DNA from: Megasphaera geminata F0357
Lineage (GTDB): Bacteria > Bacillota > Negativicutes > Veillonellales > Megasphaeraceae
DNA: 62,468 bases
Assembly (NCBI RefSeq): GCF_000239275.1
Contig: NZ_JH417574.1
Span: 55,111-117,578, forward strand
Reading direction: 5' to 3'
In this document: in pieces, positions 1 to 47,794 of the stretch
Layout of the letters: the number at the start of each line of letters is the position of its first letter
Position numbering within the stretch: position 1 is the stretch's first letter
Translations under genes and position numbers: made by a program
The notes under the pieces: generated by a model
What the model was told of the DNA's origin: nothing
The model's database searches: none
What the model saw: the letters and a program-made list of their open reading frames with translations, nothing else

Positions 1-1613
1 ACGCTCCAGTTGCCGTCGCTCCCGCCGCAGCGGCTCCGGCTGCTGTCGCGTCCGTAGCTGCCGTAGGCGGTTCCGTGCGCATTCACATCGGCGAAGGCAA
101 GGATATTGACCTCGAATTCCCCTTGGGCGGCGGTATTGCCGCTCCCGTAGCTGCCGCTCCGGCAGTAGCCGCGGCGGCAGGCGCAACTTCCGCCGTAACG
201 GGTGACGCAGTGGCGGCGGTAGCGGCCGAAGCGGCTCAGGAACCTGTCAAGGTGCGCGAGCTCCGCCATGACCACTTGAAAATTGAAAAGGTGGAATTCG
301 GTGAAGAAACAAAAATCGAAGGCACAACCTTGTTCATCCGTAAAGAAGGGATCTGCGAGGAAGCCGTGGAAACACAGGAACTTGTAGAAGCCCTCGAACT
401 GGATATCATCACTCCGGACCGTTATAATGAATTCTCCAACACGATCATGGACGTACAGCCTCTGGCAACCAAGGTCGAAGGAGAGCTCGGCGAAGGCGTT
501 ACCCGTGTCCTTGACGGTGTCGTCTTCATCGTTTCCGGTACCGACTCCACGGGCGTCCAGATCGGCGAATTCGGTTCTTCCGAAGGCGAAATGGACAAAA
601 ATATCATGTGGGGCCGTCCGGGCGCTCCCGACAAAGGTGAAATCTTCGTTAAGACGAATGTGACCATCAAGGCCCATTCCAACATGGAACGGCCGGGCCC
701 CTTGGCCGCACACCGCGCTTCCGACTACATTGCGCAGGAAATCCGCGAAGCGATTAAGAAAGCGGACCCGTCTCTTGTGGTGGAAGAAGAAGAAATCGTT
801 CAGTATCGTCGTCCCGGCAAGCCGAAGGTGCTCATTGTCAAGGAAATCATGGGCCAGGGCGCTATGCATGACAACTTGATTCTCCCGGTTGAACCGGTAG
901 GCACATTGGGAGCGAAACCGAATGTTGACCTCGGCAACCTGCCGGTCCTGCTCAACCCGCTTGAACTCGTCGACGGCGGCATCCATGCATTGACCTGCAT
1001 CGGCCCTGCTTCCAAGGAAATGTCCCGTCATTACTGGAGAGAACCGTTGGTTCATGCGGCAATGCGCGATGAAGAAATCGACCTGGTCGGCATCATGCTT
1101 GTAGGCTCACCGCAGGCTAACTCTGATAAATTCTATGTTTCCCGTCGTCTCGGCCAGACCGTTGAATGCATGGGCATCGACGGCGCCATCGTAACGACTG
1201 AAGGCTTCGGCAACAACCACGTTGACTTCTCGTCTCATATCGAACAGATCGGCAAGCGCGGTGTTAAAGTTGTCGGCGCTTCTTATTGTGCTGTCCAGGG
1301 CGCGTTGGTCGTCGGCAACAAGTACATGGGTGCTATGTGCGACAACAACAAGTCCAAACAGGGTATTGAAAACGAAATCCTTTCGAACAACACGCTTTGC
1401 CCGGAAGATGCTATCCGTCAGCTGGCCATGTTGAAGACCCTGCTCGGCGGCGGCGAAATCAAGGCTGCCGAACGCAAATGGAACCCCAACGTCAAGCTGA
1501 ATAACATCGAAGTAATTGAAAAGACAACCGGTAAGAAGATCGAGCTCGTTGAAAACGAACAGGTTCTTCCGAAGTCCAAAAAACGTCTTGAAAAATACGA
1601 ACCGGAAGCATAA
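1..1613 (+). CDS. prdA: D-proline reductase proprotein PrdA (5' partial)
   Basis: PrdA is the pyruvoyl-containing subunit precursor of D-proline reductase, which cleaves D-proline reductively to 5-aminovalerate in Stickland fermentation. The frame is open from the first complete codon at base 3, so the true start lies upstream of the window. The visible N-terminal part is a low-complexity Ala/Pro/Val segment of roughly 80 residues. The conserved body follows, with a GEFGSSEG-type motif near base 560 and the self-processing site in HALTCIGPASKE. The Cys codon at 996-998 is the expected residue that becomes the pyruvoyl group after Thr-Cys cleavage. The C-terminal part (FGNNHVDFSSHIEQIGKRG) matches the later PrdE. 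It is the first visible gene of a tight prd operon; the small ORF at 1631 follows 17 bases later. Family assignment is firm; the cleavage position is inferred by homology. Confidence 0.93.
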   Translation, partial: APVAVAPAAAAPAAVASVAAVGGSVRIHIGEGKDIDLEFPLGGGIAAPVAAAPAVAAAAGATSAVTGDAVAAVAAEAAQEPVKVRELRHDHLKIEKVEFGEETKIEGTTLFIRKEGICEEAVETQELVEALELDIITPDRYNEFSNTIMDVQPLATKVEGELGEGVTRVLDGVVFIVSGTDSTGVQIGEFGSSEGEMDKNIMWGRPGAPDKGEIFVKTNVTIKAHSNMERPGPLAAHRASDYIAQEIREAIKKADPSLVVEEEEIVQYRRPGKPKVLIVKEIMGQGAMHDNLILPVEPVGTLGAKPNVDLGNLPVLLNPLELVDGGIHALTCIGPASKEMSRHYWREPLVHAAMRDEEIDLVGIMLVGSPQANSDKFYVSRRLGQTVECMGIDGAIVTTEGFGNNHVDFSSHIEQIGKRGVKVVGASYCAVQGALVVGNKYMGAMCDNNKSKQGIENEILSNNTLCPEDAIRQLAMLKTLLGGGEIKAAERKWNPNVKLNNIEVIEKTTGKKIELVENEQVLPKSKKRLEKYEPEA

Positions 1614-1630
1614 GCTTTCTGGAGATAAAA

Positions 1631-1945
1631 ATGGCTGAACACGAACTTAAGTACATGTCCAGTGAGGCAATGTACGAAGGAGTTATTGTAGAACTTCATG
1701 ACGGTAGCGTGGGAATTGACCTCAAAGGCCGCTTAGGCCACCTGAGCATTCCCAAGCGTATGATAATTTCGAATTATGAATTGAAGCTCGGACAGGAAGT
1801 GGGATTTCTCATGTCTTATCCGGAAGTTTTCGATGATGAGCCGAAGGAAGAATATGTAAACGCTATCAAGCATAGGAATAAGCTTCTTGAAGAAGCGAAA
1901 CGCAAAAACTCCGAAAGTAAACAGAGAGGAGAAACATTGTTATGA
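1631..1945 (+). CDS. Small prd-operon protein (CBO2463/CBO2479-type domain)
   Basis: A protein of 104 residues between prdA and prdB. Clostridial prd operons carry a small gene of unknown role in this slot, and I believe this belongs to the same group. The N-terminal half (residues 10-65) reads as a compact beta-rich domain with GVIVELHDGSVGIDLKGRLG, resembling an Sm-like or S1-like barrel. The C-terminal 35 residues are charged and helical. The stop overlaps the prdB start by four bases (ATGA), indicating translational coupling with the selenoprotein. A good ribosome site (GGAG) lies about seven bases before ATG 1631. No catalytic residues are recognisable. A role in assembly or stability of the reductase complex is only inference. 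Confidence 0.7.
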   Translation: MAEHELKYMSSEAMYEGVIVELHDGSVGIDLKGRLGHLSIPKRMIISNYELKLGQEVGFLMSYPEVFDDEPKEEYVNAIKHRNKLLEEAKRKNSESKQRGETLL

Positions 1946-2667
1946 GTTTAACAGTTTTTGAAGGCTTACAGTCTGAAATATACGTGCCTATTACGCCGAA
2001 ATCTATTTTCACGCCTGTAACCAAACCTTTAAGCGAAATGACTATTGCACTCGCTTCCGCTTGCGGTGCCCATCTTAAAAGCGATGCCCGCTTCAATCTT
2101 GCAGGGGATACGTCTTTCCGCGAAATCCCCGACGACACGCCGACGAGTGAATTGATGATCTCTCACGGCGGTTACGATAACAGTGATGCCAACCGTGACA
2201 TCAACTGCATGTTCCCGCTCGATCGTTTGCATGAGCTTGTAAAAGAAGGCTTCATCAAAGCTACCGCTCCGACACACTTCGGTTTCATGGGCGGCGGCGG
2301 CGACCAGGAAGCGTTCCACGATAAAACCGGCCCTGAAATTGCCAGAAGACTTAAAGAAGAAGGCGTCGACGGCGTCCTCTTAACAGCCGGGTGAGGTACT
2401 TGCCACAGAACTGCCGTGATCGTGCAGAGAGCAATTGAAGAAATCGGTATCCCGACTATTATTATCGCGGCCCTGCCGCCTGTAGTACGTCAGAACGGCA
2501 CGCCCCGCGCTACGGCTCCTATCGTCCCGATGGGTGCTAACGCAGGCGAACCGCACAATATTGAAATGCAGACGGGTATCGTCAAGGATACGCTCCAGGC
2601 CCTGGAAGACATTGAAACTCCGGGTAAGATCGTTCCCTTGCCGTATGAATATGTAGCTCAGATCTAA
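1942..2667 (+). CDS. prdB: D-proline reductase selenoprotein subunit PrdB (in-frame UGA = Sec)
   Basis: PrdB carries the active-site selenocysteine that attacks D-proline and passes it to the PrdA pyruvoyl group. A UGA at 2392-2394 interrupts the frame, yet reading continues without a break as GTCHRTAVIVQRAIEEIG to the UAA at 2665-2667, giving 241 residues with Sec at position 151. The context TAG-U-GTCHRTA is the diagnostic PrdB redox motif, so the UGA is a Sec codon rather than a stop. A short stem (CTGC 2411-2414 with GCAG 2424-2427) sits about 17 bases downstream, where a bacterial SECIS is expected. The start overlaps the stop of the preceding gene. Co-location with selB and tRNA-Sec supports Sec readout. 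An automatic annotation would split this gene in two. Confidence 0.95.
2392..2430 (+). promoter_or_regulatory. UGA Sec codon and candidate bacterial SECIS element of prdB
   Basis: The UGA (2392-2394) is followed by a short hairpin with CTGC (2411-2414) pairing to GCAG (2424-2427) around a loop containing G residues. Bacterial SECIS elements recognised by SelB domain IV lie about 15-40 nucleotides after the UGA and have a short apical stem with exposed G, so spacing and form fit. The stem is small and not proven. The codon assignment itself rests mainly on the PrdB protein context. Confidence 0.6.
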
Positions 2668-2710
2668 TTGTTGTTGCGACAACTATACTTTGGAAAAGCA
2701 GGTGTGACTC

Positions 2711-3448
2711 ATGCATGGCGAACCGTTGAAGATTAGAGTCTTTCATATGAAAGAGGTCCGGCTTGGAGACTGCTTCAAGCTGGAAGCGGACCGCCTGACG
2801 GTACCGCAGAGTTTTAACCATGCGTGCGATTTGATTGAGCAGCTGAAGATTCAAGTATTGCCGCCGCGACAGCACGATGTAGAAACCAACACCATCATGG
2901 ATGTGGTCCCCATATCCGCGAAGGTGTTGGGCCCCATCGGGGCGGGGATTACCCATACCCTGACGGGAGTATATGTCGTCATGTGCGGCGCTATCATTGA
3001 CGGCGAACAGCTCCATGAATTCGGTTCATCCGAAGGCAGATTGAGCGAAAACATGAAATTTAATAAGGTCGGTACGCCCGGCGATGATGATTACATTATT
3101 CTTATAGACGCATTTGTGAAAAAAGGCACTGCCTTTACGCGTGAAACATGCATGAAGGTTTTTGAACTCGTAGATAATTTTATTCAGGAAATCAGGGAGC
3201 AGTTAAAACTCCTTGACGGCCGTGACGCGGCGGAATCACATACGTATACGGAAAACTATCATCCCGGCAAGCCTAAGGTCGCAATTATCAAAGAAGTAGC
3301 CGGCCAGGGCGCTATGTACGACACCTTGGTATTTCCTCTTGAACCGAGCGGTTTCAAAGGGGGCGTTTCCATTATCGATATGGAGAATATGCCCGTTCTT
3401 TTGTCACCCAACGAGTATCGCGACGGCGCTATCCGCGCGATGGATTAA
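2711..3448 (+). CDS. prdD: PrdD, homologue of the N-terminal half of PrdA
   Basis: The 245-residue protein aligns with PrdA from the segment before the FGSSEG motif up to the processing site: DIMDV-like, GVYVVMCGAII, LHEFGSSEG, HPGKPKVAIIKEVAGQGAMYD, NMPVLLSPNEYRDGAIRAMD. It stops exactly where PrdA would be cleaved; PrdA reads GGIHALT before its Cys, whereas PrdD ends GAIRAMD-stop. It therefore lacks the pyruvoyl-forming residue and cannot be an active reductase subunit by itself. In clostridia prdD and prdE are accessory genes of the same operon with no settled function. The start ATG has only a modest ribosome site (AGGTG). The next gene, prdE, begins 22 bases after the stop. Confidence 0.9.
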   Translation: MHGEPLKIRVFHMKEVRLGDCFKLEADRLTVPQSFNHACDLIEQLKIQVLPPRQHDVETNTIMDVVPISAKVLGPIGAGITHTLTGVYVVMCGAIIDGEQLHEFGSSEGRLSENMKFNKVGTPGDDDYIILIDAFVKKGTAFTRETCMKVFELVDNFIQEIREQLKLLDGRDAAESHTYTENYHPGKPKVAIIKEVAGQGAMYDTLVFPLEPSGFKGGVSIIDMENMPVLLSPNEYRDGAIRAMD

Positions 3449-3470
3449 GAGTGAAGAGGAGGTGTTGTAA

Positions 3471-3944
3471 ATGGGTATCGGACCGTCAACCAAGGAAACT
3501 TCAAAACACTATTTTCAAGATCCTCTAATCGACGTATTTGCCAATGACCCGGAAATCGATTTCCGCGGTGTTGTCGTTGTAGGCACCCCCCAGGACAACA
3601 GAATGAAGCACCTCGTCGGTCAGCGCGCGGCCGTATGGCTGAAAGCAATGGCCTGCGACGGCGCCGTTATTTCTGCCGACGGCTGGGGCAATTCGGATGT
3701 GGACTTTGCCAATACTATGGAACAGGTCGGCGATCGGGGCATCAGTATTATAGGGATCAAATTCATCGGCAAACAAGCCAAATTCGTTGTTGAAAATAAA
3801 TATACGAATCAGGTTTTGGATATGAATAAATCCGTTGCAGGCATCGAAACGGAAATAGTAGGTGAAAATGCGGTGGACCGCATAGACGCAATTAAGGCTT
3901 TAGCTGCAATCAAATTAGTGATGCGCAAAGATAAAAAATTCTAG
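3471..3944 (+). CDS. prdE: PrdE, homologue of the C-terminal half of PrdA
   Basis: A 157-residue protein beginning MGIGPSTKETSKHYF, which aligns with CIGPASKEMSRHYW immediately after the PrdA cleavage point. It carries the same downstream landmarks (FRGVVVVGTPQDN, MACDGAVISADGWGNSDVDFANTMEQVGDRG, NKSVAGIETEI). The Cys that becomes the pyruvoyl group in PrdA is replaced at the start by Met-Gly, so no pyruvoyl group can form. PrdE therefore resembles the mature alpha-like part of PrdA made directly as a separate chain. The ribosome site AGGAGG lies about nine bases before the ATG. It sits in the prd operon between prdD and the racemase. Its function in the complex is unknown; a pseudo-subunit partner of PrdD is my inference. 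Confidence 0.9.
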   Translation: MGIGPSTKETSKHYFQDPLIDVFANDPEIDFRGVVVVGTPQDNRMKHLVGQRAAVWLKAMACDGAVISADGWGNSDVDFANTMEQVGDRGISIIGIKFIGKQAKFVVENKYTNQVLDMNKSVAGIETEIVGENAVDRIDAIKALAAIKLVMRKDKKF

Positions 3945-3977
3945 AAAAATCTGGAAGCACAAGGGAGGTTAAGAACC

Positions 3978-4997
3978 ATGAAGTATTCAAGGATGCTTAC
4001 GGCTATTGATTCTCATACTTGCGGCGAAGCCGCTCGTTTGATTATCGGCGGTGTTACCAAATTCCCCGGTAAGACAATGGCTGAAAAGAAAATCTACTTG
4101 GAAGAACACGAGGACAATTTGCGGAAAGCGGTAATGCTTGAAGCAAGAGGTCATCAGGACATGTTCGGCGCGTTTATTTGCGAACCCGTTCATGACGAAG
4201 CCGATTACGGCATCATCTTTATGGATTCCGGCGGATACTTGAATATGTGCGGCCACAATACCATCGCGGCCATGACGGCGGCGGTTGAATGCGGCTGGGT
4301 ACATGTAAAGCCGGGCGAGCGCGAAGTTTCTGTCGTTCAGGACGCGCCTGCCGGTATTATCCGCGGTCATGTACATTTAAAAGACGACTATGTCGTCGAT
4401 TCCGTTTCTTTTGATAACGTCGAATCTTTCCTCTACAAGGAAAATGTGGAAGTAGACGTTCCCGAACTGGGCAAAAAAATTCACTGCGACATTTCTTTCG
4501 GCGGCAGTTTCTTCGCTATTTTGCCGGCTACGGAAGTGGACCTTGATATTTGCCCGGAAAATGCAAGCAAATTCTCCAAGATCGGTTTGATTATTCGCGA
4601 CGCCGTCAACAAACAGGTGGAAATACAGCACCCGACACTGGAACATATTAAGACGGTAGATCTTGTGGAATTCTACGGCCCTGCCAAGAGTCCCGACGCA
4701 ACGTATCAGAATGTCGTCGTCTTCGGCGAAGGTTCCGTCGACCGTTCTCCCTGCGGCACAGGCACGAGTGCGAAAGTGGCTACGCTCCATGCTAAAGGTG
4801 AATTGAAGGTGGGCGAACACATTATTTATGAAAGTATTTTAGGCACGAAATTCAAAGGTGAAGTCCTGGAAGAAACGACGCTTGCCGGCCGTAAAGCCAT
4901 CATCCCGAGAATCACGGGTTCCGCTTATATTAACGGCTTCAACACGTTCTTAGTGGATCCTGACGATCCCTTAAAAGACGGCTTTATCCTTGGTTAA
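3978..4997 (+). CDS. prdF: Proline racemase PrdF
   Basis: The cofactor-independent racemase interconverts L- and D-proline and so supplies the D-isomer to the reductase. The 339-residue length matches the family. The two catalytic cysteines are visible in the paired motifs MCGHN (Cys91) and DRSPCGTGT (Cys259), with the expected spacing. Cys at both sites indicates proline racemase; 4-hydroxyproline epimerases share this pair and trans-3-hydroxyproline dehydratases have Thr at the second. The prd-operon context decides for proline. A strong GGGAGG ribosome site precedes ATG 3978. The TSUP permease gene starts 15 bases after the stop. Confidence 0.95.
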   Translation: MKYSRMLTAIDSHTCGEAARLIIGGVTKFPGKTMAEKKIYLEEHEDNLRKAVMLEARGHQDMFGAFICEPVHDEADYGIIFMDSGGYLNMCGHNTIAAMTAAVECGWVHVKPGEREVSVVQDAPAGIIRGHVHLKDDYVVDSVSFDNVESFLYKENVEVDVPELGKKIHCDISFGGSFFAILPATEVDLDICPENASKFSKIGLIIRDAVNKQVEIQHPTLEHIKTVDLVEFYGPAKSPDATYQNVVVFGEGSVDRSPCGTGTSAKVATLHAKGELKVGEHIIYESILGTKFKGEVLEETTLAGRKAIIPRITGSAYINGFNTFLVDPDDPLKDGFILG

Positions 4998-5012
4998 TAG
5001 GGGGAGATTTCC

Positions 5013-5900
5013 ATGGTAGTTAACGCACTGCTCGGTTTATTAGGTATTTTATTTATTTACTATTTGATTTTCTATGTCCGTGATCTGGTTGCACACAAGG
5101 GTGACTGGGGCGAAGGCAATGTTCCCATCAATCTGTTTATCGGGTTCATTACCAACTTCCTCGATACATTGGGTATCGGCTCTTACGCGACGACGACGAT
5201 GCTGCTCGGCGTGACCAAACAGCTCAAGAGCGATAAGCTTCTTCCGGGGACACTGAATGTTGCCGATACGATCCCCGTATTGATTGAAGCGTTCCTCTTT
5301 ATTTCCGTCGTGGAAGTTGAATCGGTAACCTTGTTTTCACTGATTATCGCAGCCATTGTCGGCGCCGTTATCGGCGGTAAAACCGTGCCGAACCTTTCGG
5401 AAAAGAAGGTACAGACCTATTTGGGCTTCGCCCTTCTCATTACGGCGCTCTTGATGCTCGGCAAGCAGCTCGGCCTCATGGACTTCCTCGGCACGGGTAA
5501 TACGGCTATGGGCCTGGAAGGACCCAAACTTATTCTTGCCGTCGTATTGAATCTGATCTTCGGTGCGCTCATGACTATCGGCTGCGGCCTCTATGCGCCG
5601 TGCATGGCTATGGTTTATTTGCTCGGCCTGAATCCGATCGTGGCATTTCCGGTTATGATGGGATCGTGCGCGGCACTGATGCCGGTCGCATCAAAAGAAT
5701 TTATCGTTGCCGGCGTATATGCCCGTAAAGTCAGCGTCCTTATTGCACTGAGCGGTATTGTCGGCGTTATTATTGCCGCTAAACTGGTTCAGAGTATGGA
5801 TCTTAATCTTCTCACCTGGCTCGTTATCATCGTCGTTATTTACACGGCCTTTATGTATATTCGCAAAGGCCTGAAAAACCCGGGTAACGCAGCTCAATAA
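5013..5900 (+). CDS. TSUP (TauE/SafE) family membrane permease
   Basis: A 295-residue integral membrane protein with about eight hydrophobic segments arranged as two similar halves. The first half carries GFITNFLDTLGIGSYATTT and the second FGALMTIGCGLYAPCMAM, the repeated Gly-rich signature of TSUP permeases. Members move sulfite, sulfonates, sulfoacetate or other small organic anions, often outward, and substrates cannot be read from sequence. As the last gene of the prd operon it may export a fermentation product such as 5-aminovalerate or import a related compound; that is inference from position only. The GGGGGAG ribosome site is strong. Transcription probably ends at the hairpin at 5982-6020. 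Confidence 0.85.
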   Translation: MVVNALLGLLGILFIYYLIFYVRDLVAHKGDWGEGNVPINLFIGFITNFLDTLGIGSYATTTMLLGVTKQLKSDKLLPGTLNVADTIPVLIEAFLFISVVEVESVTLFSLIIAAIVGAVIGGKTVPNLSEKKVQTYLGFALLITALLMLGKQLGLMDFLGTGNTAMGLEGPKLILAVVLNLIFGALMTIGCGLYAPCMAMVYLLGLNPIVAFPVMMGSCAALMPVASKEFIVAGVYARKVSVLIALSGIVGVIIAAKLVQSMDLNLLTWLVIIVVIYTAFMYIRKGLKNPGNAAQ

Positions 5901-5981
5901 CCGGGGACGTTACGGCAAATTTTACTGCCGTCATTGTCCTAACGGTATGAAAGTTATGCAATATCTCAATAAAAGATGATG

Positions 5982-6020
5982 AAAAGCCTGATTTCTATTA
6001 TAATAGAAGTTGGGTTTTTT
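5982..6020 (+). terminator. Rho-independent terminator after the prd operon
   Basis: A long hairpin whose inner arms (TTCTATTA with TAATAGAA) are perfectly complementary and continue outward through G-U and G-C pairs to AAAA/TTTT, followed by a run of six T. It separates the prd operon from selB. Confidence 0.85.
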
Positions 6021-6055
6021 CATTTACTTGCAATCATGTGTAAAGGAGTCTGCTT

Positions 6056-7976
6056 ATGGCGAATATTGTAATCGGTACGGCAGGTCATGTCGATCACGGT
6101 AAAACAACGCTGATCAAAGCCTTGACGGGGATTGAAACGGACACGACAAAAGAAGAAAAAAAGCGGGGCATGTCCATTAATCTAGGGTTTGCCTATTTGG
6201 ATCTGACCCATGGGCGCCGCGTCGGTATCGTCGACGTACCGGGGCATGAAAAGTTCATAAAGAATATGGTTGCCGGGTTGCCCGGCATTAACCTCGTTCT
6301 CCTCGTTATCGATGCCGGCGAGGGCGTGATGCCGCAGACACGGGAACATATTGACATATTGAGCCTTTTAGGCGTTAAAAACTTTCTTATCGTTTTAACG
6401 AAAATTGATACAGTAGATGAAGAACTGCGTGAACTTGCCGTTGAGGATACGCGTCAACAATTGGCCAATACGGCGCTGAAGGACGCCGAAATCGTGGAAA
6501 CGGACGCTATAAGCGGAAAGGGTATTTCCGAACTTCGCAATAAAATAGAGGAATGGGCGGACAAGGTGCCGGAGGCCGCCGAGGACGGGAAAGCCCGCCT
6601 CAATGTAGATCGTGTATTTTCCGTCAAAGGCTTCGGCACGGTTGTCACGGGCACGCTTCTGGACGGGCCTGTCAGCGTAGGTGATGAGCTTACTGTCTAT
6701 CCCGGCAAAAAAAAGACGCGTATCGGCAACATTCAAGTACACGAAACGGATGTAAAAAGAGTCACGTCCCGGCACCGTACGGCCCTCAACCTGGCCAATA
6801 TAACAACAGACGATATAGAACGGGGTGACGTGCTGTCGGTCTCGGATCAGCTGCAGCCGACATGGATGCTCGACGTTAAGATCTCGTGTCTGAAACATGC
6901 CGCCGCCCCTGTCGGCCTTTGGGATCGCGTGCGTCTTCTTATCGGCACGCGCGAGGTCATGGCCAGAGCCGTACCGATAGGTACGGAACGTATTGAACCG
7001 GGGCAGGAGGGCTTTCTGCAGCTTCGCATGGAAACGGAGCAGGTCGTCGTCAAAGAACGGGATCGTTTCATTCTCAGAACCTATTCGCCGATGCATACGA
7101 TTGCCGGCGGTGAGATACTTGACGCGGCGCCGAAGAAACACCGCCGTTTCAAAGCCGATGTATTGGCGAGCCTGAAGACCAAAGAAGAAGGCAATCTCGC
7201 CGATATTATGGAAGATTTTTTGATCCATAAAAAGCAATCTTTCACGACGGAAAAAGATCTGGCCGAATATACGGGCATGACGGGGGAAGAACTGCAGAGT
7301 GAATTGACCGCTCTGTCCGATGCGGGAAAATTGCTGCATATTTCTCTCGGCTATATCCATACGGACGTGTATAAGAAGATAAAGGGGCAGGCCGTTCAGA
7401 TCCTCCTGTCATATCATCAGAAATTCCCGTTGCGGGCAGGCATGTCTCCGGAAGAATTCCGCTCCCGCCTGCGGCAAAAAAAGCGGGGACAAGACTGTTT
7501 CGGATAAGGAAATTTCGGCGCTCATTAAACTGCTGTTGTCAGACGGCGCCTGCAAGGAAGAGGGGAGCCTCATTGCGGCCGCGAGTTTTACCGTGAAATT
7601 CAATGAAAAGCAGACGGCATTACGCAAAAAAATAGAAGAAACAGTGCTGAAAAGCGGATACACGCCTGTTAAAAAAGCGGAATTCTACAGCCTTGATCAA
7701 GAAGCTGAAGGGGTCGTGGAAGCCCTGTGCGGCAGCTCGTTTGTACAGCTTACACCCGAATATGTCATTTCCGGGGAATATTTTAATAAAGCCGTTCAGG
7801 CTATACATGACTATATCCGCGAACACGGACGGATGGCTCTGGGCGATTTTCGCGATATAACCGATTCGAGCCGTAAATCGTCAATGCTTATTCTCGAGTA
7901 TGCCGATTCGCTCGATATCACAAGGCGTGTGGAAAATTACCGTGTTCTCGGCTCCTATTGGAACCGTCAGCAATAA
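6056..7976 (+). CDS. selB: Selenocysteine-specific elongation factor SelB (frameshifted)
   Basis: SelB is the EF-Tu-like GTPase that delivers Sec-tRNA to UGA codons carrying a SECIS. The N-terminal GTPase domain shows the P-loop GHVDHGKT (residues 8-15), DVPGHEKF and TKID; beta-barrel domains follow, then C-terminal winged-helix repeats (RNA binding). The reading frame breaks at an A7 run (7476-7482). The upstream frame stops at 7507, while the downstream winged-helix part continues in another frame from about 7485 to 7976 (SDKEISALIKLL ... SYWNRQQ). Removing one A gives a continuous protein of 639 residues, the normal SelB length. This is probably a sequence error, although an A7 tract is also a possible slippage site. 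Ribosome site AAAGGAG. SelB would serve prdB upstream. Confidence 0.9.
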
Positions 7977-8049
7977 CCCGTATTCAGCATAGTATGTCGG
8001 TTCCTGCAAGCACAATACTACTCTTAAAAGGAAAGAAGGTAATTCCTGT

Positions 8050-9452
8050 ATGAACAGCAAGAAAATCGGTTTATGGGATTTGGTATTCATGGACGTATCG
8101 GCATTGTTCGGTATTCGCTGGATAGCCAAATCGACTGCATCCAGCTTCGGGTTGGGCTTAGGCGCCATTCCGTCATGGGTGCTGTTCTCTTTTATTTTCT
8201 TTGTTCCGTGCGCCCGATCTGTGCGGAACTGGCATCGACCTATCCGCGTGACGGCGGTCTTTTCGAGTGGGTGAAGGAAGCGTACGGAGAAAAATTCGGT
8301 TTCCTCGTTTCCTGGCTGAACTGGACTTCCAAAATTTTCTGGTACACGTCCTTTCTTACCTTTCTGACAATCAATGTGTCCTTTGCCATTAACATGCCCG
8401 AATTGTCGGAAAACAAAACGTTTGTACTCATCATGTCTCTCGCCGTTTTCTGGATTCTTTCCTTTATCAGCACAAAGGGTATGACTTTCGGCAAAATTTT
8501 CACGAATCTCGGCGCGTTGGGCTCGACGGTACCGGCTGTTCTTCTGATCCTCATGGCCTTCGGCGCCGCAATTTTCTTCGACAGGCCGTCCGCGTCGGTC
8601 TATACGGTGGAAACGATGACTCCCGTATTGAACTGGGACTCCCTCGGCGCGATTTCCAGCGTCATGTTTGCCTTTGCCGGGTCGGAACTTACGGCCAATT
8701 TTGTTACGGAAATGGAAAATCCTAAACGGGATTTCCCGCGGGCGATTTTTATTGCCGCCGCCGTTGTGGCCGGCATTTACATGCTCGGTTCCGTTGCCAT
8801 TACAATGATTATGCCGACCGATCAGATCACCGCTTCGCAGGGCATTCTCGTGAGTTTGGCTGCAATTTCCGCATGGTTCGGGATCGGCTCATGGTTCATC
8901 CAACTCGTTGCTTTAGGCATTACTTTTTCTATGGTTGGCGCGATTATCCTGTACATCGCGTCTCCCGTCAAGATGCTTTTCGGCAGTGTCAAAAACGGCA
9001 TTTTTCCCGAATCGATGACGCGGACGAACAGTCGCAATATTCCGGAACGCGCCGTCTATCTGCAGGCGATCCTGGTTACCGTAATTATTCTGGCGTTTCA
9101 ATTCATCCCGTCCGTCGACGCGATTTACAACGTACTGGTCACGATGACCGCTTTGACGGCCCTGTTCCCGTATGTGCTGCTTTTTATGTCATACATTAAA
9201 CTGCGCAAAACCCGTCCCGACGAAGAGCGTCCGTACGAAATATCGAAAAATACGGGCACTGCCGTTTCCGTGGCTACACTGGTCCTCATCGTTACCGTAA
9301 TCGGCATTATCTGCTCGGCGGCGCCCGTTATGCCGACATGGGAAGATAATCTGATATATGAGGCGGAAATGATCTTCGGCGCTGTTGTTGTCATCGGTGC
9401 CGGCTTGGGCTTATGGAGCCGTTTCGTCAAAAAGACAGGGTTTAAAGAGTGA
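8050..9452 (+). CDS. APC-superfamily amino acid permease (frameshifted)
   Basis: A membrane transporter of the amino acid-polyamine-organocation superfamily with about twelve hydrophobic segments. The conserved early signature is FVPCA...ICAELASTYPRDGGLFEWV, and FAGSELTANFVTEMENPKRDFPRAIF follows later. The N-terminal 54 residues (MNSKKIGLWDLVFMD...) and the rest lie in different frames, joined near 8208-8212. Restoring one base there (CC-GATC to CCTGATC) gives a continuous 467-residue protein. It lies 73 bases after selB and ahead of a Xaa-Pro peptidase, so amino-acid import or antiport for the proline pathway is plausible. Family members closest in appearance include glutamate/GABA-type antiporters; the substrate is not determined. 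Confidence 0.85.
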
Positions 9453-9516
9453 TTGTCTTTTTACGGTAAATACCGCGTAAACAGAGGCCGTTTGTTGAAA
9501 TTAAGGAGGAGTTGTT

Positions 9517-10596
9517 ATGCATCAGAATCGTGTTAACAAAGTATTACAGTTAATGGCGGAACAGAACATACCGCAAATGATCGTGTCCGACCCGTATGCC
9601 GTCTTTTATCTGACGGGAACATGGATTCATCCCGGCGAGCGCATGCTTGTCTTATACCTGACACAGAGCGGTAAACATAAATTATTCGTAAACGAGCTGT
9701 TTCCCTTTGCCGCCGCGGTGGACGCCGAAAAGGTCTGGTTCAACGATACGCAGGATGCAGTCGCGATTTTAGCCGATTACATTGAAAAGGACAAGACTGT
9801 GGCCGTCGACAAGAACTGGCCGGCCCGTTTCCTCATCGGCCTCATGGACCGCCATGCAGGCAGCGCCTTTGTGAACGGCTCCGAAATCATCGATCGCGTC
9901 CGCATGGTAAAAGATGCAAAAGAGCTTGATATTATGCGGGAAGCGTCCCGTTTAAACGACATTGCGTGCAGTAGAATGGTCGAACTTGTCAAAGAGGATC
10001 TGGACGAAGCGCAAATGGGGAAAAAACTCGGTGAGATCTGGGAAGAACTCGGCGCCGAAGGACATTCGTTCGAACCGATCATCGCATACGGCGCGAACGG
10101 CGCCGATCCGCATCATACGACGGTAAAAGGCGCCCGTAAGAAGCCGGGCGATACTGTCGTCATCGATATCGGTTGTATTTATAAATCCTATTGTTCCGAT
10201 ATGACGCGTACCGTATTTTATCAGTCCGTCCCGGCAGAAGGGAAGAAGGTTTACGAAATTACGCGCGATGCCAACTTGAAAGCCATCGAAAAAGTTAAAC
10301 CGGGCGTCACGTTCGCGGCACTCGACGCGGCCGCCCGCGATTATATTACGGAGCACGGCTACGGTAAGTATTTTACCCATCGCCTCGGCCATTCTATCGG
10401 GCTGGAGGACCATGAAGCGGGTGATGTATCCGCCATTAACCATGATGTCGTCGTTCCGGGCCGCGTGTTTTCTATCGAACCGGGGATTTACCTGCCCGGC
10501 AATCTGGGCGTTCGCGTGGAAGATCTCGTCATCGCCACGGAGGACGGCTGCGAAGTGTTGAACCGTTATACAAAGGATTTACTGGTAGTAGGATAA
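9517..10596 (+). CDS. M24-family Xaa-Pro peptidase
   Basis: A 359-residue metallopeptidase of the aminopeptidase P/prolidase group. An N-terminal creatinase-like domain (to about residue 125) precedes the pita-bread catalytic domain. The metal-ligand motifs are visible: DIGCIYKSYCSDMTRT (two Asp), RLGHSIGLEDHEAG (His), FSIEPGIYLP (Glu) and GVRVEDLV (Glu). Such enzymes release residues from X-Pro bonds and would free proline from peptides. That fits the neighbouring proline reductase, racemase and permease genes. The AAGGAGG ribosome site precedes ATG 9517. Dipeptidase versus aminopeptidase specificity cannot be told from sequence. Confidence 0.9.
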   Translation: MHQNRVNKVLQLMAEQNIPQMIVSDPYAVFYLTGTWIHPGERMLVLYLTQSGKHKLFVNELFPFAAAVDAEKVWFNDTQDAVAILADYIEKDKTVAVDKNWPARFLIGLMDRHAGSAFVNGSEIIDRVRMVKDAKELDIMREASRLNDIACSRMVELVKEDLDEAQMGKKLGEIWEELGAEGHSFEPIIAYGANGADPHHTTVKGARKKPGDTVVIDIGCIYKSYCSDMTRTVFYQSVPAEGKKVYEITRDANLKAIEKVKPGVTFAALDAAARDYITEHGYGKYFTHRLGHSIGLEDHEAGDVSAINHDVVVPGRVFSIEPGIYLPGNLGVRVEDLVIATEDGCEVLNRYTKDLLVVG

Positions 10597-10665
10597 CCGG
10601 AAACATAAAGTGTTGCGACATGAAGGTACGGCGCAGGTCTTCTTTATGTCAGAAAGGGAACGAAT

Positions 10666-11652
10666 ATGCTCTTGCTGAACAGGTCGGATATTGAATCGGT
10701 ATTTTCCATGAAAGCCGCTATCGCGGCGAACAAGGAAGCGTTTGCGCTGGCGTCATCGGGAGAGGCGGTTGTTCCGCTGCGCACGTCTTTACGCAGTGAT
10801 ACCGTTGACGGGACATTTCTTTTTATGCCGTCATATACAAAAAAACTGAACAAAGCCGCTTTAAAAACGGTCAATGTGTTTCCGGGCAACGCGGCGGCGG
10901 GGCTTGACGTCACCCGAGGCGTAATCCTACTCATGGACGGTGAAACAGGCGCTTTTTTAGCCATGCTGGACGGAACCTGTGTTACCGCCCTGCGTACCGG
11001 TGCCGCGGCGGGAGCGGCGTATGATCTGCTTGCCCGTAAAGACGCGGCCTGCGGGGCACTTATCGGCACGGGCGGACAGGCCGAATGCCAACTGGCGGCC
11101 ATGTTATGCTGCCGGGCGCTGAAAAGCGTGCGCGTCTTCAGCAGGAACGAGGAAAAAAGGGAAGCTTTCGCAAAGGCTATGAATAAAAAATTTGCTGCTT
11201 ACGGCGCCCGTATCGTTTCCGTTTCTTCAGCCGATGAAGCCGTACAGGGGGCAGACCTGGTCACGGCGGCAACGACCGCTTCCGAGCCGGTGATTAAAGG
11301 TGAATTGCTCAAAGAAGGGGCTGTCGTATGCAGTATCGGTTCATATACTCCGGAAATGATAGAAATGGATACGGCCGTCCTGAAACGGGCCGCAGCCGTT
11401 TATGTCGACTCACGCGAAGCCGTACTGGCGGAAGCGGGAGATTTCCTGCAGCCTATGTCGCGCGGTGAATTCAGTGAGGCCCGGATTACGGGAGAATTGG
11501 GCGAACTTGTCCTGAACCGGTGTGCCGGACGAAGCGGGGACAGTGATATCATCGTGTTTAAAAGCGTCGGTACGGGCATTCAGGATTTAGTAACGGCCGC
11601 CCGTATTTACGAGGCCGCCGCAGCCGCTCGTGCCGGTACGGAATGGATATAG
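10666..11652 (+). CDS. Ornithine cyclodeaminase / mu-crystallin family protein
   Basis: A 328-residue protein with the family layout: an N-terminal dimerisation part (to about residue 115) with the substrate-loop DGTCVTALRTGAAAGAA, then an NAD(P)-binding Rossmann domain beginning GALIGTGGQAECQL. The C-terminal SVGTGIQDLVTAARIY motif is also typical. True ornithine cyclodeaminase converts ornithine to proline and ammonia, which would feed the proline reductase encoded nearby. Family members also reduce ketimines or act as alanine dehydrogenases, so the specific reaction is inferred from context. The gene lies 69 bases after the Xaa-Pro peptidase and just before the tRNA-Sec promoter. Confidence 0.85.
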   Translation: MLLLNRSDIESVFSMKAAIAANKEAFALASSGEAVVPLRTSLRSDTVDGTFLFMPSYTKKLNKAALKTVNVFPGNAAAGLDVTRGVILLMDGETGAFLAMLDGTCVTALRTGAAAGAAYDLLARKDAACGALIGTGGQAECQLAAMLCCRALKSVRVFSRNEEKREAFAKAMNKKFAAYGARIVSVSSADEAVQGADLVTAATTASEPVIKGELLKEGAVVCSIGSYTPEMIEMDTAVLKRAAAVYVDSREAVLAEAGDFLQPMSRGEFSEARITGELGELVLNRCAGRSGDSDIIVFKSVGTGIQDLVTAARIYEAAAAARAGTEWI

Positions 11653-11669
11653 GCGGACAGCTGAAGTTG

Positions 11670-11698
11670 TTGTCAAAATAACTATTATATGATAGTAT
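11670..11698 (+). promoter_or_regulatory. Sigma-A promoter of tRNA-Sec
   Basis: TTGTCA (11670-11675) and TAGTAT (11693-11698) are separated by 17 bases, with the tRNA starting about 16 bases downstream. It lies in the gap after the ornithine-cyclodeaminase-family gene, so the tRNA has its own promoter. Confidence 0.7.
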
Positions 11699-11714
11699 TT
11701 ATCTTGTCGTTTGG

Positions 11715-11809
11715 GGGGGGATGGGTTCTGGTGTGCCCTCTGGTCTTCAAAACCAGCATGAGGAGTTAGGAGCTTCTTAGGTGGGTTCGATTCCCACACC
11801 TTCCCGCCA
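11715..11809 (+). tRNA. selC: tRNA-Sec (anticodon UCA)
   Basis: A tRNA of about 95 bases whose anticodon stem CTGGT/ACCAG encloses the loop CTTCAAA, placing anticodon TCA at 11747-11749. It has a long variable arm (about 11755-11780), a T arm GTGGG-TTCGATT-CCCAC, an extended acceptor of 7-8 pairs starting in the run of G at 11713-11720, discriminator G and encoded CCA. These are the hallmarks of bacterial tRNA-Sec, which reads UGA with SelB. The exact 5' end is uncertain by one base because of the G run. One acceptor mismatch (A-C) remains in the 8-pair version. Confidence 0.93.
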
Positions 11810-11820
11810 TTTACCAATTC

Positions 11821-11850
11821 AGGCCGGGCCGCCGCCCGGCCTCTTTTATT
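11821..11850 (+). terminator. Terminator after tRNA-Sec
   Basis: Perfect nine-base stem AGGCCGGGC / GCCCGGCCT around a CGCC loop, followed by CTTTTATT. Confidence 0.85.
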
Positions 11851-35661: not shown

Positions 35662-35798
35662 CGTTCCATCAAGAGTCGGCGGAGGGATTGGCCCCATGAT
35701 GCCGCAGCAACCTTCTAAAAGGAAAAGGTGCTAAGTCCAACAGCCGTCAGGCGGGAAGATGGGTCTTTGAACCCCTCTTTACAGAGGGATTTTTTTTA
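35662..35798 (+). ncRNA. SAM-I (S-box) riboswitch of metK
   Basis: The conserved core is clear: TCAAGAGTCGGCGGAGGGA, then TTGGCCCCATGATGCCGCAGCAACC, and AAGGTGCTAAGTCCAACAGCC. P1 can pair around 35664-35670 with 35757-35763. A terminator hairpin CCCTCT (35773-35778) / AGAGGG (35783-35788) with a T8 tail follows. SAM binding should favour the terminator and shut off metK, giving end-product control. Confidence 0.95.
35772..35798 (+). terminator. Riboswitch-controlled terminator before metK
   Basis: CCCTCT/AGAGGG stem, TTAC loop and eight T; the expression platform of the SAM-I riboswitch. Confidence 0.9.
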
Positions 35799-47550: not shown

Positions 47551-47610
47551 CGGCCTTGTTTTGCCGGTACGGCTATGATATAATTTACAGAGAATTTCCA
47601 TATGTACTCA

Positions 47611-47794
47611 TAGTCTTTGAGGCAAGGTGAGAAAGCACTGCTTTCAAGTCCTGACCGGCGGTGACAGTCCGCGAGCCCTGAGGGGCTGAACCGGTGTGAA
47701 CCCGGTACCGACAGTAACAGTCTGGATGAAAAAGACATCCTTTTTTACGGCAATGCAACTAAAGGCTATTGGTTTATGTACCGATAGCCTTTTC
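47611..47794 (+). ncRNA. FMN (RFN) riboswitch of the rib operon
   Basis: The conserved RFN blocks are present: GAGGCAAGGTGAGAAAGC, CCTGACCGGCGGTGACAGTCCGCGAGCC, GGGCTGAACCGGTGTGAACCCGGTACCGACAGT and AGTCTGGATG. P1 can form between GTCTTT (47613-47618) and AAAGAC (47730-47736 region). A terminator hairpin AAAGGCTATTGGT/ACCGATAGCCTTTT (47761-47793) follows 35 bases before ribD. FMN binding should terminate transcription. Confidence 0.94.
47761..47794 (+). terminator. Riboswitch-controlled terminator before ribD
   Basis: Long A/G-C stem AAAGGCTATTGGT / ACCGATAGCCTTT with a six-base loop and TTTC tail; expression platform of the FMN riboswitch. Confidence 0.85.

Follow-up and report, generated by a model that had tools for sequence, protein, structure and literature searches.

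Plasmids that combine genes for D-proline reductase (prd) with genes for the decoding of selenocysteine (Sec) are already known. The 21-kb plasmids of Terrisporobacter carry prd genes together with selA, selB, selC, and selD, and their PrdC is given as a cysteine (Cys) type (PMC10564238). A composite prd-sel locus occupies the first 12 kb of a 62,468-nucleotide stretch of DNA from Megasphaera geminata F0357 (the window; contig C15:55111-117578 of a 1.8-Mb draft genome in 57 contigs). Its prd operon and sel cassette were probably acquired by an ancestor of Megasphaera from a Lactobacillales-like donor, with a later takeover by one SelB. Like the Terrisporobacter plasmids, the locus holds proline reductase and Sec-decoding genes in one compact unit. 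The Terrisporobacter unit differs in that it is plasmid-borne, has its own selD and a complete Sec set, leaves prdF on the chromosome, and contains no peptidase or permease; its SelB is only 37% identical to that of the window. The sel set of the window locus is incomplete, with selD on another contig, and the locus is flanked by pst, rpoD, and mfd, with no plasmid or mobile-element genes around it.

Region R1 of the Ligilactobacillus salivarius megaplasmid pMP1046A has the same run of genes, prdA-cbo-prdB-prdD-prdE-prdF-tauE, followed by an APC permease, yedF, DUF3343, selB, and selA, whereas its selD, yedE, and prdC are located downstream and its SelB is 42% identical to that of the window. 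The pMP1046A paper lists the prd and sel genes without discussing a Sec unit, and prdB is listed as a probable pseudogene (PMC4165912); this prdB (L151 20995-21720) is a UGA-Sec gene. The closest relatives outside Megasphaera are the loci of the Enterococcus avium group, located on a chromosome or megaplasmid, which share the order from prdC to tauE, have yedF-DUF3343-selB nearby, and carry a related M24 peptidase upstream. They differ in their supply genes (a peptide MFS transporter, a prolyl iminopeptidase, and a second Xaa-Pro peptidase) and in the Cys-type selD within the unit, and their sel genes are sometimes about 14 kb or more distant. The prd operon of Clostridioides difficile and Acetoanaerobium has the order prdA-cbo-prdB-prdD-prdE-prdF and Sec in PrdB, as in the window, but in C. 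difficile SelB was not detected within the fetched flanks and PrdC contains Cys.

Phylogeny of the prd and selenocysteine-insertion proteins

The trees indicate that the prd enzyme and the Sec-insertion genes entered Megasphaera from Lactobacillales-type bacteria. SelB is present in 44 of 300 sampled Negativicutes genomes and absent from the sampled order-mates outside Megasphaera, and PrdA occurs in 17 of the 300, nine of them Megasphaera. The SelB tree contains 61 rows, and in it the 14 SelB of Megasphaera, whether linked to prd or not, are all nested in the prd-linked SelB of Lactobacillales, apart from 19 other SelB of Negativicutes. The grouping of Megasphaera SelB with the E. avium group has a support of 99 in the Shimodaira-Hasegawa-like approximate likelihood ratio test (SH-aLRT) and a bootstrap of 100 in a smaller, careful tree. 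Placing all Megasphaera SelB with those of Negativicutes was rejected by the approximately unbiased test (p-AU 0.0017), as was placing only the non-prd-linked ones there (p-AU 0.0026).

The Sec-type PrdA of Megasphaera is nested with Vagococcus and Enterococcus; row G125 of this tree represents a wrong open reading frame (ORF), and its placement was left out. SelA of Megasphaera groups with Vagococcus with moderate support (SH-aLRT 87). The second, Cys-type SelD of M. cerevisiae and a broken SelD in genome G003 are sisters of the SelD from Enterococcus islands, and the main SelD of Megasphaera is not of the Lactobacillales type. The comparison of phylogenies that the first-pass annotation had proposed thus yielded concordant placements of PrdA, SelB, and SelA with the Lactobacillales, and the prd-linked peptidase groups with Enterococcus.

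Linkage of prd and sel genes in other bacteria

A PrdA alignment was scanned against 84,980 named species genomes, which gave 481 relatives, and the best 80 were mapped. The loci of Enterococcus, Vagococcus, Listeria, and Companilactobacillus have the order prdC(UGA)-prdA-cbo-prdB(UGA)-prdD-prdE-prdF-tauE, typically followed by selD, yedF, selB, and selA, and tRNA-Sec is often located within 10 kb. PrdA was detected in 23, and SelB in 42, of 395 Lactobacillales genomes. In all 23 genomes with PrdA, PrdA and SelB share a contig; the distance between them is up to about 15 kb in 22 of these and 31 kb in the other. The hypergeometric probability of this co-occurrence, uncorrected for relatedness among the genomes, is about 1e-25. 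PrdA is also present on 22 plasmid records, and the three that were opened (Terrisporobacter 21-kb, L. salivarius, E. raffinosus) all contain sel genes together with prd. Phages were considered as carriers and rejected, as they provided one distant match at 25% identity.

The plasmids, the strict linkage in Lactobacillales, and the concordant placement of PrdA, SelB, and SelA support the movement of the prd-sel core as a unit. The first-pass annotation had proposed that the whole 12-kb arrangement could travel as one functional unit. This is supported for the core and not for the complete arrangement, as the prd locus of M. cerevisiae and of UBA1696 consists only of prd, tauE, and selB.

Organization of the locus

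Profile and tRNA searches confirmed the genes that had been read from the sequence within 12 kb: a reductase operon with an in-frame UGA, a racemase, SelB, tRNA-Sec, a permease, a Xaa-Pro peptidase, and an ornithine cyclodeaminase (OCD)-like gene. Genes were called using NCBIfam equivalog models with their cutoffs, and the TauE/SafE, AA_permease_2, M24, and OCD_Mu_crystall families using Pfam. Terminator-like sites are consensus matches only, and their total count is near the shuffled expectation. The features of the locus are:

1-1613, + strand: prdA, D-proline reductase proprotein (TIGR04480, 851 bits, cutoff 700); the 5' end lies upstream of the window, across an N gap
1631-1945, + strand: small ORF with a CBO2463 domain (NF041553, 93.7 bits, cutoff 50), positioned between prdA and prdB also in relatives
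1942-2667, + strand: prdB, selenoprotein subunit, Sec at TGA 2392-2394 (TIGR04483, 410 bits when read through the TGA, cutoff 300)
2392-2439, + strand: putative Sec insertion sequence (SECIS) starting at the prdB UGA, a small stem-loop, ranking in most comparisons among the best-conserved stretches of 48 nt in prdB
2711-3448, + strand: prdD (TIGR04482, 366 bits, cutoff 320)
3471-3944, + strand: prdE, matching the C-terminal part of PrdA (TIGR04480 profile positions 415-564; gene order conserved)
3978-4997, + strand: prdF, proline racemase family (PF05544, 397 bits; NF010576, 507 bits, below the cutoff of 556)
5013-5900, + strand: TauE/SafE family membrane protein closing the prd operon (PF01925); follows prdE or prdF in relatives
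5981-6020, + strand: terminator-like hairpin in the gap between the prd operon and selB, 18-pair stem and T tail
6056-7976, + strand: selB, Sec-specific elongation factor (TIGR00475); ORFs 6056-7507 and 7536-7976, frame broken at the A7 run 7476-7482
8050-9452, + strand: APC-family permease, GadC-like (PF13520, AA_permease_2); ORF 8073-9452, frame broken near 8213, true start 8050
9517-10596, + strand: M24 peptidase of the Xaa-Pro type (PF00557 and PF01321); the best solved relatives are Xaa-Pro dipeptidases
10666-11652, + strand: OCD/mu-crystallin family oxidoreductase (OCD_Mu_crystall, Pfam)
11713-11805, + strand: selC, tRNA-Sec (ARAGORN; Rfam RF01852, 70 bits, cutoff 47)
11821-11842, + strand: terminator-like hairpin 3' of tRNA-Sec, 9-pair G+C-rich stem

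The PrdA alignment keeps the motif ALTCIGPA, so that the Thr-Cys cleavage region is conserved. The prdB TGA has the context AG-U-GTCHR (UxxC) and is in register in all 60 aligned Sec-type PrdB. Both active-site Cys motifs are present in PrdF on reading. The possibility that PrdD is a frameshifted fragment of PrdE was ruled out, as the two are separate genes in relatives and are fused in reversed order in a second operon of the same genome. The hairpin at 5981-6020 gives a faint hint of selB expression separate from that of the prd operon. Elsewhere in the window, S-adenosylmethionine and flavin mononucleotide riboswitches are located at 35663-35765 and 47609-47740, respectively.

Directly upstream of the window are prdC with an in-frame TGA, selA, yedF, two DUF3343-type ORFs, proS, and a double-cubane-cluster reductase, and selD, with its own TGA, is located on contig C46. 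The genome thus contains a full Sec-decoding set, in which the frame of selB, the only SelB of the genome above the TIGR00475 cutoff, is broken in the assembly. The first-pass annotation had missed prdC, selA, and selD: all three are indeed outside the window, and inspection of the upstream flank, as it had suggested, revealed prdC and selA immediately next to it. With selD elsewhere in the genome, self-sufficiency of the locus is not supported.

Stem-loops following the UGA codons

Short stem-loops are predicted directly 3' of the UGA codons of both prdB and prdC. In prdC, the 48-nt stretch that begins at the UGA has the same sequence in the M. geminata locus, M. cerevisiae, Colibacter, E. 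avium, and E. dongliensis, and in 12/12 comparisons no other 48-nt stretch of the gene is as well conserved. The corresponding stretch of prdB ranks top in 8/12 comparisons, with ties or lower ranks in the rest. Purifying selection on SECIS elements matched to a co-inherited SelB would best explain this conservation.

Supply genes and the 12-kb layout

The locus is not a chance arrangement, because each of its genes recurs in the same order in M. micronuciformis and Colibacter massiliensis, the closest genomes at the prd locus (M. micronuciformis strain F0359). Its exact 12-kb layout is limited to three sampled genomes, these two and that of the window; the G012 contig stops short of the part that would show it. 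The 12-kb layout does not look like the travelling unit and appears reassembled locally: the sel cassette seems to have lost its own selB, and the permease, the OCD-like gene, and tRNA-Sec seem to have been added.

The prd-linked M24 peptidase clusters with the prd-linked peptidases of Enterococcus, apart from other M24 proteins of Megasphaera. This is suggestive of co-transfer of the peptidase with prd, in a tree that has few outside rows. Near prd in the other genomes mapped, no close counterpart of the permease is encoded. The permease scores 256 bits against the NCBIfam GadC model, below the cutoff of 650, and is certain only to the level of the broader APC family; by analogy to GadC, it is possibly a proline/5-aminovalerate exchanger. 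M. micronuciformis has two tandem copies of the permease-peptidase pair (L039 7261-11361). Other supply genes are located beside prd in E. raffinosus (a peptide transporter, Xaa-Pro peptidases, and a prolyl iminopeptidase) and in L. salivarius (an APC permease), and these differences suggest that genes for proline supply were recruited more than once.

The OCD-like protein scores 229 bits to delta1-pyrroline-2-carboxylate reductase (6t3e) versus 70 bits to ornithine cyclodeaminase (1u7h/1x7d), and the reading as an ornithine cyclodeaminase was rejected on this basis; the protein is probably delta1-pyrroline-2-carboxylate reductase-like. The synthesis of proline from ornithine, previously ascribed to this gene, is therefore not supported. 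Read by eye, with the residue not aligned by a tool, the protein has the motif GSYTPE, in the place where we would expect GDCPGK, which we take to be the motif with Asp228 of the Pseudomonas putida ornithine cyclodeaminase. A relative with 42% identity is located near prd in Listeria ilorinensis. A retron-like reverse transcriptase (L119 3318-4316) is encoded near the prd-sel locus of that species.

SelB copies and the sel cassette

In every complete Sec-prd locus of Megasphaera, selB is positioned directly behind tauE. M. cerevisiae and UBA1696 each encode two diverged SelB, of which one follows prd-tauE and the other belongs to a sel cluster. These pairs (M. cerevisiae L044/L045 with L054; UBA1696 L046 with L055) may be specialized for different SECIS elements. 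Genomes G011 and G012 have the cassette pstB-yedF-DUF3343-selB-selA, and the clade of the window has pstB-yedF-DUF3343-selA, without selB; the Megasphaera cassette order agrees with that of Lactobacillales. Most simply, the prd-linked selB would have replaced the cassette selB in the clade of the window.

A second, cysteine-type prd operon

A second complete prd set, with Cys in both PrdB and PrdC, is located outside the window on contig C56 of the same genome (L008 6197-11850), and it is in this operon that PrdE and PrdD are fused in reversed order. Its PrdA forms one clade with those of other Negativicutes. Family f14 is among these; no SelB was found in its sampled members, and their PrdB contains Cys. 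The Cys-type PrdB of this family (L156-L159) is 88-92% identical to that of Megasphaera, which suggests recent transfer or strong constraint. Sec- and Cys-type operons also occur side by side in M. cerevisiae and Asaccharospora irregularis. The Cys-type operon could be a selenium-independent backup or act on a different substrate.

Frame breaks in the draft assembly

A 202-bp N gap (L007:18910-19111) just before the window cuts prdA. An alignment with Colibacter revealed one extra base at the A7 run of selB, the frame of which is intact in relatives, and the permease is one base short near 8213, where the Colibacter frame is intact. The mfd frame is also split, at about 13200, and is intact in relatives. 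Judging from these alignments, the single-base frameshifts are probably draft errors. A second gene or a programmed frameshift was rejected as the first choice for the split SelB, given the intact frames of relatives, and the two frames were joined at the A7 site for the trees.

Proposed history and function of the locus

By analogy to the characterized clostridial enzymes, PrdF would convert L-proline to D-proline, which would be reduced to 5-aminovalerate by the pyruvoyl-containing PrdA and the Sec-containing PrdB. PrdC, a UGA-Sec protein, would supply the electrons, and NAD+ would be regenerated as in Stickland fermentation. SelB, SelA, and tRNA-Sec encoded beside prd, together with SelD from the other contig, would read the UGA codons in prdB and prdC as Sec by means of the stem-loops directly after them. 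A Lactobacillales-like donor would have passed the prd operon, along with a cassette of the type selD-yedF-DUF3343-selB-selA, to a Megasphaera ancestor. SelB would then have been present in two copies, one placed directly behind the prd operon, and the loss of the cassette selB in the clade of the window would have left the prd-linked SelB alone, which is now adjoined by the Xaa-Pro peptidase, the permease, and the pyrroline-2-carboxylate-reductase-like gene.

Several points weigh against this history. Most trees have SH-aLRT support only and contain long branches, with the support for SelA being moderate, and the direction of transfer is read from how the lineages nest in a sample of limited size. 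Neither an integrase or replication gene nor a clean empty site turned up, and the flanks differ between species; at mfd, the upstream genes differ in relatives, none of which has a left-flank island gene there. The linkage statistics ignore the kinship of the Lactobacillales genomes, 19 of which have SelB without PrdA, so that the link is not exclusive in that direction. Sec decoding could be lost in strain F0357 if the break in its sole selB is real.

Among other explanations, it is unlikely that Megasphaera obtained the prd and Sec-decoding genes in separate events, from related donors, and brought them together later, with no unit having travelled. In favour of such a history, the Megasphaera sel cassette is mostly apart from prd, beside pst or selD, and the main SelD is not of the Lactobacillales type. 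However, PrdA and SelB are both placed beside Vagococcus and Enterococcus lineages, which carry the two in physical linkage, PrdA and SelB distances are correlated across 33 rows (r 0.88, without correction for common species history), and selB invariably follows tauE in complete Megasphaera loci. Transfer of the prd-sel unit in the reverse direction, from Megasphaera-like Negativicutes into Lactobacillales, is quite improbable: Megasphaera is located several supported nodes inside Lactobacillales and Listeria for both SelB and PrdA, and Lactobacillales lineages split off successively before it, even though donor and recipient are told apart by nesting alone and the deep nodes are on long branches.

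A chance or housekeeping neighbourhood, with prd and sel inherited vertically in Negativicutes, is more improbable still. It would account for the confinement of the exact layout to three closely related genomes and for proS, mfd, and pst as resident housekeeping neighbours, but not for the placement of Megasphaera SelB and SelA outside the Negativicutes, the scarcity of PrdA in that class, or the recurrence of strict prd-selB linkage in Lactobacillales and on plasmids. Acquisition from a Lactobacillales-like donor is preferred, and this transfer, the SelB replacement, and the pair of Sec- and Cys-type operons in one genome appear to be unreported in the open-licence literature searched.

Implications for the spread of selenocysteine decoding

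A selenoenzyme has no use without the machinery, nor the machinery without a client, so that the regain of Sec decoding is an open question. Linked units of a client and SelB, with putative SECIS elements identical at the nucleotide level across bacterial classes, offer a concrete route to regain. The two diverged SelB of M. cerevisiae and UBA1696 permit a direct test of SelB-SECIS specialization, and genomes with both Sec- and Cys-type proline reductases permit a test of the benefit of selenium. We lean towards the view that SelB and SelA of Megasphaera descend from a Lactobacillales prd unit that brought the enzyme, SECIS, and matching SelB together, after which SelB would have duplicated and spread to other selenoproteins, and the prd-linked copy would have replaced the cassette copy in the M. 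micronuciformis clade. If this is true, the expansion of the genetic code across the genus goes back to a single client enzyme.

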